Below, piece by piece: positions 11,881 to 60,638 of a DNA stretch of 64,000 bases. This DNA comes from Mesorhizobium sp. M9A.F.Ca.ET.002.03.1.2 (GTDB taxonomy: Bacteria > Pseudomonadota > Alphaproteobacteria > Rhizobiales > Rhizobiaceae). The stretch is taken from the NCBI RefSeq assembly GCF_003952365.1, contig NZ_CP034443.1:2039001-2103000 (forward strand). The letters run 5' to 3'. Made by a program: the position numbers and the translations under genes. How positions within the stretch are numbered: the first letter of the stretch is position 1; every line of letters begins with the position of its first letter. Below the pieces are notes generated by a model. The model saw only the letters and a list, made by a program, of their open reading frames with translations, searched no databases and had not been told where the DNA came from.

Positions 11881-11899
11881 AACTGGCCGATTGGCGCCG

Positions 11900-12121
11900 T
11901 TCCTCGCCCCCGCGAAGCGGGGGAGAGGTGGCCCGGCGAAGCCGGGACGGAGAGGGGGGCGACATCCGCGAAGTCAGAACCCGGTGAGGGACAGGGTGCG
12001 TGACTCGCCATGGTACGAAGCCTTTCAGGCGCCTTGAGACAACGAGCTCCCGGACGCCGTGAAGGCCCCTCTCCGTCCCGGCTTCGCCGGGCCACCTCTC
12101 CCCACTTTGTGGGGCGAGGAA
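11900..12121. repeat. Large inverted repeat between convergent nhaA and mmcB
   Basis: Two arms of about 57 bases (11900-11957 and 12066-12121) are imperfect inverted copies, separated by 108 bp. Each arm contains GAGAGGTGGCCCGGCGAAGC or its complement and a smaller hairpin of its own (CCCGGCGAAGCCGGG). It fills most of the gap between the two stops and can fold in transcripts from either side, so it may act as a bidirectional terminator or end stabiliser. Confidence 0.85.
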
Positions 12122-34099: not shown

Positions 34100-34795
34100 G
34101 TGATCTTCGACGCCGCCCGCGCCGCCGCAAGCCGGCTGTTCTCGCCCGAATTCCGCTCGGTGTTCGTGAAGACGCTGGGGCTGACCTTGCTGACGCTGGC
34201 CGCACTTTGGTTCGCCATCGAGGGCCTGTTCGAGTGGCTGGCCTTGCCTTGGATCGACGCTTGGCTGCCCGGGCTGCCGTCCTGGGCCGGATGGCTGGGC
34301 GTCATCGTCGCCGGTATCGGCCTTGCACTGGGGCTGGCGTTGCTCATCGCGCCGGTGACGGCGATCATCGCCGGCCTGTTTCTCGACGACGTCGCCGAAG
34401 TGGTCGAGCGCACCGACTATCCCAATGACCCGCCCGGCCGTGCCATGCCGGCGCTGCGCTCCCTGGTGCTGGCGATAAAATTCTTCGGCGTCGTCATGTC
34501 AGGCAACATCGTGGCTTTGCTGCTTCTGCTGGTGCCGGGCATCAACATCGCCGCCTTCTTCGTCGTCAACGGCTATCTGCTGGGACGCGAGTTCTTCGAA
34601 TTCGCCGCCATGCGCTTTCGCCCGGAAGCCGAGGCAAGGGCATTGCGCAGGAAACATGCCGTCACGGTGTTCCTCGCAGGGCTGGTCATCGCTGCCTTCC
34701 TCACTGTCCCGCTGCTCAACCTTCTGACGCCGCTCTTCGCCGCCGCCATGATGGTGCACCTGCACAAGGCGATCAGTGCGCGGGAAGCGAACTGA
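34100..34795 (+). CDS. EI24/CysZ-like integral membrane protein
   Basis: A 231-residue inner-membrane protein with four or more membrane segments (TLGLTLLTLAALWFAIEGLF; WLGVIVAGIGLALGLALLIAP; GNIVALLLLLVPGINIAAFFVVNGYLLGREFFE; HAVTVFLAGLVIAAFLTVPLLNLL). NGYLLGREFFEFAAMR and the PLLNLLTPLFAAAMMVH end are typical of the EI24 domain family, which includes the sulfate permease CysZ. Sulfate transport is not shown for this branch. Translation starts at GTG 34100 behind a TAGGAG site. The gene is followed by a large nested repeat. Confidence 0.82.
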   Translation: MIFDAARAAASRLFSPEFRSVFVKTLGLTLLTLAALWFAIEGLFEWLALPWIDAWLPGLPSWAGWLGVIVAGIGLALGLALLIAPVTAIIAGLFLDDVAEVVERTDYPNDPPGRAMPALRSLVLAIKFFGVVMSGNIVALLLLLVPGINIAAFFVVNGYLLGREFFEFAAMRFRPEAEARALRRKHAVTVFLAGLVIAAFLTVPLLNLLTPLFAAAMMVHLHKAISAREAN

Positions 34796-34829
34796 CTGCT
34801 CGCCCGCTCGCTACTTGGCTCAGGTCGAG

Positions 34830-35195
34830 TTCCTTCGCGCCCCCCTCTGTCCTGCCGGACATCTCCCCCACGCGGGCAGGGCAATCGCATATGGCAGCGC
34901 CTGCCCCCCACTCCGGCCACTGCGCGGCCACCTCTCCCCATGACATGGGGGAGAGGAAACCCAAGCCTTTCAAGGCCGCGACCATGGCGACCGGCGTTTC
35001 TTCTCCCCCACTTTGTGGGGAGAGGTGGCTCGGCGAAGCCGAGACGGAGTGGGGGAGCGCCATATGCGATTGCCCTGCCCACGCGGGGGGAGATTGGACA
35101 TCGTCGTCGTTTTCACCAATCGCCAACGTTGCAGCAAGGCGCTGCGGACGAAGCTTCCGATCTCCCCCATGTGGGGGCGCTGTCCTGCCAACCTC
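34830..35195. repeat. Composite palindromic repeat with a second repeat nested in it
   Basis: The outer element begins CCTTCGCGCCCCCCTCTGTC...GGACATCTCCCCCACG and resumes after the insertion as CGCGGGGGGAGATTGGACAT, CCAATCGCC, AAGCTTCCGATCTCCCCCATG. It follows the same order as the intact element at 60480-60638 (GGAGATCGGACGTC, CCAATCGCC, GAAGCTGCCGATCTCCCCC). Removing the nested 201 bp and one direct repeat restores a normal hairpin tip. It fills the gap between the convergent EI24-like and hydroxyproline dehydratase genes. Confidence 0.8.
34877..35077. mobile_element. Nested 201-bp palindromic mobile element (MITE-like)
   Basis: The segment is bounded by terminal inverted repeats CAGGGCAATCGCATATGGC and flanked by a 10-bp direct repeat CCCACGCGGG (34867-34876 and 35078-35087), the pattern left by a transposition-type insertion. 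The two arms continue as imperfect inverted copies for about 80 bp (CCCCCACTCCG..., GCCACCTCTCCCCA...). It encodes nothing. The inner part resembles the repeat at 11900-12121. Confidence 0.8.
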
Positions 35196-35210
35196 TGAGA
35201 TCTCTGACCA

Positions 35211-36206
35211 TCAGCGCAGCAGAAAACCCTTGCCCAGTTCGTCGTCGGGCTCGACGATGAATTCGGCCCGGCCGCAGTAGTAGGCGCGGCCGCCGACACG
35301 GGCGATGATGGCGTCATGCGACCCGGCTTTGGCCGTCCGCGCCACGCTGCCGGAAAAGCGCGAGCCGGCGATGCTCTCGAACACCCGCGTCTGGCCGGCA
35401 ATCTGGCCCTTGGCATGCATCGCCGCCAGCCGCGCGGTGACGCCCGAGCCGGTCGGCGAACGGTCGACCTCGGCCTCGGCGAAGACGCAGACGTTCCTAG
35501 TCGGGGTATCGGAAAATACGTCCCGTCCGTCGGTCAGGATGGTGCCGTAGAGAAAGGCAAGATCGGCATGGTCGGGGTGCGACAGCGGGAACTCGGCCTT
35601 GAGCCTGTCGGTCAGCGCCGTCGCCGCATCGACGAAATCGCGCACGCGGCTTTTGCCGAACTCCAGCCCGAACTGGCGGCAATCGGCCAGCGCATAGAAG
35701 GCGCCGCCGTAGGCGATGTCGAAGCCGATCGCGCCGAAGCCGGGCAATTCGATCTCCTGGTCGCGGGCGAACAGAAAGGCCGGCACGCTTTCGAACGACA
35801 CCGCGCCGGCCTTGCCGTCCTGCACCTCGACCGAGGCGACGACCAGCCCGCACGGCGCTTCGATGTTGACGGTCGTCACCGGCTCCTGCCGCGCCACCAG
35901 CCCTTCGTCGACGGCGTAGCGGCCGAGCGCGACGATGGCGTGGCCGCACATGGTCGAATAGCCTTCATTGTGCATGAACAGCACGGCGAGATCGGCGCCG
36001 GGCAGGTCGGGCTCGACCAGCAGCGCGCCGTACATGTCGTAATGGCCGCGCGGCTCGAATATCAGGAGCTTCCTGAGATGATCGAGGTGGTCGCGCACAT
36101 AGGCGCGTTTTTCCAGGATCGTGCCTTTCGGGATCTGCGGATAACCGCCGGTGACGATCCGCAGCGGCTCGCCGCCAGTGTGCATGTCGACGACGGTGAG
36201 TCTCAT
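35211..36206 (-). CDS. Trans-3-hydroxy-L-proline dehydratase (proline racemase superfamily)
   Basis: A 331-residue member of the proline racemase family. The first catalytic residue is a cysteine, C87 in STMCGHAIVA. The second position is threonine, T252 in VDRSPTGSGVTARL, where racemases and epimerases have cysteine. The Cys/Thr pair is the mark of trans-3-hydroxy-L-proline dehydratases, which eliminate water to give pyrroline-2-carboxylate. DMHTGGEPLRIVTGG opens the family fold. It begins 14 bp after a PEP-mutase-like gene on the same strand and is probably co-transcribed. No proline transporter or ketimine reductase gene lies nearby. Confidence 0.85.
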   Translation of the reverse strand: MRLTVVDMHTGGEPLRIVTGGYPQIPKGTILEKRAYVRDHLDHLRKLLIFEPRGHYDMYGALLVEPDLPGADLAVLFMHNEGYSTMCGHAIVALGRYAVDEGLVARQEPVTTVNIEAPCGLVVASVEVQDGKAGAVSFESVPAFLFARDQEIELPGFGAIGFDIAYGGAFYALADCRQFGLEFGKSRVRDFVDAATALTDRLKAEFPLSHPDHADLAFLYGTILTDGRDVFSDTPTRNVCVFAEAEVDRSPTGSGVTARLAAMHAKGQIAGQTRVFESIAGSRFSGSVARTAKAGSHDAIIARVGGRAYYCGRAEFIVEPDDELGKGFLLR

Positions 36207-36220
36207 GCGTCGGGGCCCAT

Positions 36221-37024
36221 CTAAGCCAAGGATTCGGCAAACAACGCCTGCAGCTTGCCGAAAGGCATGGCGTCGCGGCTGAAGCCGAAGGTGCCGTCCT
36301 GCTGGATCTCGCGCGCCGCGGTTTCCAGCATGCCAAAGGCGAAATTGGTGAGTCCGGACCCGAGCGAGATACGCTTGACACCTGCCTGGGCGAGGTCGTC
36401 GATGGTGAAGTCGGGCCTCGCCAGGACATTGACCGGCCTGGTCAGCGCCGAGCAGATGATCTGCACCGTCTCGATGTCGCCGATGCCCGGCGCGTAGAGC
36501 ACGTCGGCGCCGGCCTTCTCGAAGGCCTGCAGCCGCTTGATCGTGTCGTCGATGTCGGGTCTGCCCCACAGGAAATTCTCGGCCCGCGCGGTGAAGACGA
36601 AATCGTGTTTCAGCGCCCGCGCCGCCTCCGCCGCAGCGGCGACGCGCTCGACCGCATGCGAAAAATCGTAGATCGGCTTGTCGGGCTCGCCGGTGTGGTC
36701 CTCGATCGAGCAGCCGGCGAGGCCCGCCGCTTCGGCCGCGAAGATGGTCTCGGCGGCACTTGTCGCGCTGTCGCCCTTGCCTTTCTCGAGATCGGCCGAG
36801 ACCGGCAGGCCGGTCGCCGCCGTCACCTCGCGGCAATGGTGGATCATCGCGTCGAAGGTCACCGCGCCATCGGGCAGGCCGCGCGAAAAGGCAAAGCCGG
36901 CGCTGGTCGTCGCCAGTGCCTCGAAACCGAAGGAGGCCAGAAGCTTCGTCGTGCCGACATCCCAGGGATTGGGCATGACGAAGATCGAGGCATGCAGGTC
37001 GCGAAAAATCTTGCCCTTGTCCAT
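36221..37024 (-). CDS. Isocitrate lyase / PEP phosphomutase family enzyme
   Basis: A 267-residue TIM-barrel enzyme. The N-terminal VMPNPWDVGTTKLLASFGFEALATTSAGFA, metal-binding SADLEKGKGDS and GLAGCSIEDHTGE, and FVFTARAENFLWG match the large oxaloacetate-decarboxylase/PEP-mutase subgroup. The KKCGH signature of true isocitrate lyases is absent, so lyase activity on isocitrate is unlikely. ATG 37024 (MDKGKIF) with GGGGAG was chosen over 37078. It is the first gene of an apparent two-gene operon with the hydroxyproline dehydratase. Confidence 0.85.
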   Translation of the reverse strand: MDKGKIFRDLHASIFVMPNPWDVGTTKLLASFGFEALATTSAGFAFSRGLPDGAVTFDAMIHHCREVTAATGLPVSADLEKGKGDSATSAAETIFAAEAAGLAGCSIEDHTGEPDKPIYDFSHAVERVAAAAEAARALKHDFVFTARAENFLWGRPDIDDTIKRLQAFEKAGADVLYAPGIGDIETVQIICSALTRPVNVLARPDFTIDDLAQAGVKRISLGSGLTNFAFGMLETAAREIQQDGTFGFSRDAMPFGKLQALFAESLA

Positions 37025-60479: not shown

Positions 60480-60638
60480 GCGCCCCCCTCTGTCCTGCCG
60501 GACATCTCCCCCACAAGGGGGGAGATCGGACGTCACGCCGGCTTTCGCCAATCGCCTACGCCGCAAGAATGAGTAAGGCGCCGAAGCTGCCGATCTCCCC
60601 CTCGTGGGGGAGATGTCCGGCAGGACAGAGGGGGGCGC
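60480..60638. repeat. Palindromic repeat with perfect 35-bp arms inside the polyamine operon
   Basis: Arms 60480-60514 and 60604-60638 are exact complements, starting GCGCCCCCCTCTGTCCTGCC. Core words are GGAGATCGGACGTC, CCAATCGCC and AAGCTGCCGATCTCCCCC. It is the intact form of the element seen collapsed at 26197-26252 and interrupted at 34830-35195. It sits in the 252-bp gap between ydcT and ydcU, which holds no gene. Confidence 0.92.

Follow-up and report, generated by a model that had tools for sequence, protein, structure and literature searches.

The gap between two convergent genes of Mesorhizobium sp. M9A.F.Ca.ET.002.03.1.2, encoding an EI24/CysZ-like protein and a member of the proline racemase family, contains one palindrome nested in another. 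This raises the question of whether a non-coding palindrome has transposed and, if so, which enzyme moved it and how the target was chosen. The locus lies in a 64-kb window, by which we mean the whole stretch of DNA that was analysed (64,000 nucleotides). We conclude that the 201-bp inner segment is very probably a MITE of a Mesorhizobium ISAs1-family IS, moved in trans to a target chosen for its symmetric sequence. The features of the locus, in window coordinates, are as follows.

34100-34795, + strand: upstream gene, EI24/CysZ-like (Pfam PF07264)
34837-34876, unstranded: left part of the outer palindromic repeat, ending in the left direct repeat; alignment to 60480 onward is unbroken once the insert is omitted
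34867-34876, unstranded: left 10-bp target duplication, CCCACGCGGG
34877-34895, + strand: left terminal inverted repeat, CAGGGCAATCGCATATGGC; its first 17 bases have 1 mismatch with each end of the M. ciceri IS
34896-35058, unstranded: MITE interior, two inversely oriented units of the class A hairpin repeat of the host, without BLAST similarity to the IS interior
35059-35077, - strand: right terminal inverted repeat, the exact reverse complement of CAGGGCAATCGCATATGGC
35078-35087, unstranded: right 10-bp target duplication, CCCACGCGGG
35088-35188, unstranded: right part of the outer repeat, its right arm shortened in comparison to intact copies
35211-36224, - strand: downstream gene in convergent orientation, a member of the proline racemase family (Pfam PF05544)
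60480-60638, unstranded: intact copy of the outer palindrome with its three hairpins

The segment at 34877-35077 was found exactly as described in the first-pass annotation, with perfect 19-bp terminal inverted repeats flanked by a perfect 10-bp direct repeat. It interrupts an outer repeat spanning 34837-35188, the intact counterpart of which is the copy at 60480-60638. Joining the flanks with a single copy of CCCACGCGGG produced one alignment to this counterpart with a score of 144, in comparison to 84 for the uncut sequence, confirming the claim that the insert lies within a second palindrome. The predicted folds of the nest (34840-35200; z -11.5, with 0 of 100 shuffles equally good) and of the inner segment alone (34877-35077; z -11.7, with 0 of 200) were both far beyond chance. 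A known RNA family and a plain terminator were ruled out as the identity of the nest, since Rfam returned 0 matches at the gathering threshold within the 64-kb window and neither a terminator-like nor a promoter-like site was found at 34750-35260. The loss in the right arm of the outer repeat, at 35150-35200, apparently occurred between two G runs.

The outer repeat consists of three hairpins forming one palindrome of ~160 bp, and 29 full-length copies, that at 60480 included, were listed in the 6.4-Mb chromosome of the strain. Thus, the outer element also exists without the inner one, as its reading as an interrupted repeat implied. It resembles the REP, BIME and REPIN repeats and the rhizobial RIME repeats in occurring as abundant inverted hairpin pairs but differs from REPINs, since the genome of the strain has no match to a Y1/RAYT transposase. 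The PF01797 profile gave 0 matches in that genome, with control matches in 5 of 14 genomes, and a RAYT-driven REPIN was therefore ruled out for the outer repeat.

A search of the same genome for the 201-bp element revealed four full-length copies (100, 97, 83 and 77% identity), and the proposal that it is a mobile element thus survived a test that could have eliminated it. The flanking repeats matched at 10/10, 9/10 and 10/10 positions of 10 bp for three copies and were an exact 8 bp for the fourth. Three of the four copies are located inside the tip of a CTCCCC..GGGGAG hairpin. The other copy, at chromosomal position 5877703, is 97% identical to the window copy and has flanks conserved in relatives, its left flank being matched in 101 of 144 genomes, the genome of the strain included. 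Among the best 19 of the 100 relatives with a left-flank match, the flank was conserved as far as the site in 8; the site itself was empty, with a single copy of the target, in 7 of the 8 and occupied in 1 (G020). The right flank aligned less well, with scores of 38 to 80 of 120 in these 8 relatives, and was ~100 bp further off in one locus (L313). This comparison shows that the copy at 5877703 is a genuine insertion with a target duplication of ~10 bp, and it bears out the earlier claim that a non-coding palindrome of this kind has really transposed. In the occupied orthologue of G020 (L309), the left end of the element is shortened, and that copy is probably immobile.

The focal locus itself was compared in 41 relatives, out of 49, that had a match to the EI24 gene, by inspecting 900 bp after this gene. 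The racemase gene adjoins the EI24 gene in 21 of the 41, with gaps of 11 to 160 bp in comparison to 430 bp here. Neither the inner nor the outer element was present in the inspected 900 bp in any of the 41 relatives, indicating that this lineage acquired both elements or that every one of those relatives has lost them. The empty site expected in orthologous gaps, with the outer repeat but without the insert, did not appear among them, and the order of nesting at the focal site consequently rests on the interruption itself.

With a length below ~300 bp, terminal inverted repeats, a target duplication and several copies, the 201-bp element has all the attributes of a MITE, and a non-autonomous element implies a driver. 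A genus-wide search for the element ends retrieved end pairs ~1.15 kb apart. In M. ciceri WSM4083, such a pair delimits an IS of 1153 bp, with CCGTTTACGG on both sides, that encodes a 371-aa transposase, and each of its ends is identical to the first 17 bases of the MITE at 16 of 17 positions. The transposase scored 260.5 bits against the ISAs1 profile NF033564 (cut-off 70; one copy tested, L065) and matched PF13808 and PF01609. As judged from these profiles, it belongs to the DDE transposases, within the ISAs1 family, and not to the RAYT/Y1 type associated with REPs. The first-pass annotation had pointed to a hairpin-targeting transposase (MITE or REP-like), and the REP-like option was not supported. 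Duplications of 8 to 10 bp are typical of the ISAs1 family; the IS ends studied here are ~18 bp long, start with CAGGG and are bordered by a 10-bp duplication, which is exact in 24 of 42 IS copies.

The transposase was detected at E<=1e-100 in 15 of 146 Mesorhizobium genomes, which is probably a lower bound because the ends sit just inside contig ends in several drafts. In the genome carrying the nest, no intact transposase of the ISAs1 kind was found. Its single ISAs1 relative (G000:C1:2678029-2678913; L251) is degraded and distant (27 to 39% identity, one stop), with no element end within 4 mismatches in the surrounding 3 kb. The MITE thus appears to be stranded in this genome at present, and its driver must have been lost or have come from elsewhere. 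The transposase gene with matching ends that the first-pass annotation called for was therefore obtained in relatives, at 16/17 per end, but not in the host genome. Transfer on plasmids was considered and rejected, since comparison to a plasmid collection gave no near match for the IS and, in distant mode, one match for the MITE, at 70.7% identity, on a Nitratireductor plasmid. The likely driver is the ~1.15-kb ISAs1-family IS of related Mesorhizobium, the ends of which match those of the MITE almost completely and which likewise duplicates 10 bp of its target. Mobilisation in trans, as the annotation had surmised, is very probable.

In order to describe target choice, 90 different two-ended insertions (42 IS and 48 MITE) were collected by end, DNA and protein searches with author-chosen thresholds; they do not constitute a random sample. 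Identical combinations of 15+15 flanking bases were counted once, which drops some nested IS copies inside near-identical MITEs. For loci permitting two pairings of the ends, that with the better duplication was retained, slightly favouring duplications. The 10-bp duplication was exact in 8 of the 48 MITE insertions, and at least 8 of its 10 bases were present in 35/42 IS and 20/48 MITE insertions, 28/48 MITE insertions falling short. Stem and motif counts are based on the 55 insertions with at least 8 of the 10 bases, the 35 of 90 with fewer being left out. Use of the earlier pairing rule instead of the final one changed these numbers little (53 versus 55 usable insertions, 35 versus 36 hairpin sites and 18 versus 19 others).

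Insertions were centred on a hairpin with a stem of at least 6 pairs in 36 of 55 cases (25/35 IS and 11/20 MITE), in comparison to 1.3% of the 16,481 nearby positions within these loci. Such targets are abundant. CTCCCC-N3-9-GGGGAG hairpins number 125 in the genome of the strain and 311 in Mesorhizobium sp. AR07, versus 1 and 4, respectively, in a reversed-pattern control; across the six genomes counted, natural hairpin targets ranged in number from about 90 to 310 per genome. The sites with shorter stems were informative. Among the 19 with a stem of fewer than 6 pairs, 9 had at least 5 of the 6 bases of TCC-N10-GGA, in comparison to an expected 0.60%, and 5 of the 14 with fewer than 4 pairs did so against the same expectation. 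The motif at non-hairpin sites was clear for the IS (7/10) and weak for the MITE (2/9), some MITE sites being old or imperfect. Of the nine non-hairpin motif sites, L088, L107 and L228 show partial palindromy or are closely related to these hairpins, which does not apply to L064, L092, L093 and L105. One further non-hairpin site with a weak motif, L021, is a true insertion.

From these observations, what the transposase recognizes is very likely a sequence that is symmetric about the 10-bp step, of which hairpin tips would be the commonest good match. The proposal of loop-specific insertion was thus correct as to the frequent use of palindrome tips, but recognition of structure is not needed to explain it. 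The 10-bp duplication had also been taken as the signature of a hairpin-targeting transposase; this did not hold, since the autonomous IS leaves the same 10 bp, including at sites without a hairpin such as L092 and L093.

The alternative that the transposase recognizes the hairpin, or cruciform, structure itself accounts for the excess of stems of at least 6 pairs, and it draws on two further observations. Sites with 5 or more of the 6 motif bases are hairpins in 24 of 33 insertions but in only 23 of the 385 such sites in the window, and at 12 of the 36 hairpin sites the motif is matched at no more than 4 of its 6 positions, the stem of L101 being made of other letters. Nonetheless, we consider this alternative unlikely, since 19 of the 55 insertions lack such a stem and nearly half of these nevertheless carry the symmetric motif. 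In addition, the left arm contains CTCC and the right arm GGAG at 31 of the 36 hairpin sites, making stem and sequence indistinguishable there, and hairpin sites located between genes would be enriched through survival alone. A preference for symmetric sequence combined with survival between genes can be enough to generate the pattern without hairpin recognition.

Survival could also be the entire explanation, if the IS inserted widely, only intergenic insertions persisted and palindromic repeats filled much of the intergenic space. The 125 CTCCCC-N3-9-GGGGAG sites of the genome are in keeping with this account, as is the finding of hairpins at 4 of the 23 places in the window where TCC-N10-GGA is matched in full. 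It is nevertheless quite unlikely on its own, because the enrichment of the motif at sites without a hairpin reveals a sequence preference that survivorship may add to but not replace. If hairpins are mostly between genes, survival adds to the hairpin bias.

Under the preferred reading, in which the target is chosen by symmetric sequence, the IS transposase, supplied in trans, would bind the ~18-bp ends and join them to the target with a 10-bp stagger, generating the 10-bp direct repeat. The target would be selected for the symmetry of its sequence, which approximates to (T)CC-N10-GG(A) with additional C/G immediately within it and is of a kind provided by the tips of the abundant CTCCCC..GGGGAG hairpins of host palindromic repeats. 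Insertion at a tip would lengthen the hairpin concentrically and avoid genes, and a correspondingly low fitness cost may underlie the survival of such insertions.

At four loci, namely, L004 (position 3912681 of the genome of the strain), L067, L078 and L085, one 10-bp flank is the exact reverse complement of the other. Such inverted-form duplications accounted for 4 of 89 insertions, or 3 of 90 in a recount in which L078 was paired otherwise. Arm-to-arm copying within the hairpin, by template switching, would give this arrangement. The target of L004 is itself nearly palindromic.

It is improbable that the MITE was moved by a different, unseen IS carrying its exact 19-bp ends. No full-length IS with the exact CAGGGCAATCGCATATGGC end was seen, and CAGGGCAATCGCATATGG copies are located at contig ends in two genomes (G069 and G072), as such an element might leave them; however, the ISAs1 elements mostly match at 16/17 at each end and share with the MITE the duplication length, the target class and the genus. 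Formation of the nest without transposition, by recombination or slippage among similar palindromes, is scarcely credible: the slippage-like loss in the outer right arm and the few inverted-form duplications would suit it, but the targets at which exact 10-bp duplications occur are unrelated, and the empty orthologous sites contain the target only once. Both observations contradict such an account and rule out an origin by chance or local slippage.

The interiors of the MITEs were compared in an earlier row set of 47 MITE and 42 IS rows. Under a blastn threshold of E<=1e-8 over 60 bp, the 47 interiors fell into four mutually unlinked classes (21, 21, 4 and 1 members). Not one of them matched any of the 42 IS copies at E<=0.01. 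What connects MITE and IS is consequently the similarity of their ~18-bp ends, the length of the duplication and the class of target. The interiors are GC-rich hairpin repeats of the host type, only the ends being common to MITEs and IS, and not internal-deletion derivatives of the IS, a derivation that is not required of every MITE. The class A repeat unit is also dispersed in the genome of the strain without transposon ends, in both arrangements: opposite to that of the MITE at, for example, L294-L297 and window positions 11898-12121, and as in the MITE at L305. The copy at 11898-12121 is an inverted pair in the reversed arrangement. Hairpins of the CCTCGGGCTTGTCCCGAGG type are widespread in Alphaproteobacteria, and the third MITE class (4/47; L008, L020, L028 and L033) has one in its interior.

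Insertions are themselves nested. The clearest case, in Mesorhizobium sp. AR07 (L259), is an IS within a MITE within a hairpin repeat, with a duplication of 10/10 for the IS and only 5/10 for the flanks of the MITE itself. In the same row set, Blast revealed MITE-like flanks in 6 of 42 IS copies, of which one is beside a MITE (L266) and two match class A repeats that may not belong to a MITE. At L266, also in AR07, the IS adjoins the MITE at the edge of the latter, in the same hairpin. Because the interiors are host-type hairpins and IS copies land in or beside MITEs, we tentatively propose that the IS ends may act as a shuttle for host palindromes. Repeats of at least three to four unlike kinds would each be carried as cargo by ISAs1-type ends common to all, and the IS transposase would disseminate them in a self-seeding manner. 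This idea is less than even in our estimation. Were it true, the motif-bearing tips present in two of the kinds would be landing sites for further copies, and concentric nesting of mobile hairpins would build the palindromic repeat landscape of Mesorhizobium.

These results identify an IS that is likely to drive the movement of non-coding palindromes in rhizobia and indicate that a motif of symmetric sequence can give the appearance of hairpin targeting. They also provide a clean system, in which the transposase and the ends are known and natural hairpin targets are available, to study the spread of extragenic palindromes of the host and to determine whether persistence of the hairpin is the reason why insertions at its tip are tolerated. 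The IS described here resembles known ISAs1-family members in its transposase, which scores above the NCBIfam ISAs1 cut-off, its size of ~1.15 kb, its ~18-bp CAGGG ends and its 10-bp duplication. In searches of open-licence papers, those on Mesorhizobium MITEs or palindromic repeats included, we found no report of a preference of ISAs1 elements for the tips of host palindromic repeats. IS231, a member of the IS4 family, and its MIC231 cassettes combine a symmetric GC-rich target with movement of the cassettes in trans and are in both respects similar to the present system, the transposase family being different.

MITEs of other IS families have been described in Alphaproteobacteria, including MITEPye1 of the IS1182 family (PMC11578231). 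As described there, MITEPye1 is, like the 201-bp element, small, hairpin-forming and mostly intergenic, with IS-type ends and a target duplication; the interior of the latter differs in being no IS remnant but one of several mutually unlike hairpin repeats. ISs that target REPs, namely, ISRm22, ISRm19, ISPsy8, ISPa11, ISPpu9 and ISPpu10, belong to the IS3, IS110 and IS4 families (Tobes and Pareja 2006, PMC1525189), and the main text of that paper contains no occurrence of ISAs1 or Mesorhizobium. The insertion point of ISRm22 in Sinorhizobium is the axis of palindromy of the REPs, its duplication is 6 bp long and 10 of 10 copies lie in REPs (PMC1525189). The systems treated in that text and the present one share specific insertion into abundant extragenic palindromes, the present one differing in the ISAs1 family, the 10-bp duplication and the share of palindrome tips, which is about two thirds of the recognisable sites. 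Type 1 REP-targeting ISs, as defined there, have 100% of their copies at the same repeat position, in comparison to the hairpin-centred shares of 25/35 (IS) and 11/20 (MITE) found here. The principle of REP-targeting ISs and of MITEs is thus already known, and the novelty of the present system, which is well supported, is that an ISAs1-family element with a 10-bp duplication has this target preference.
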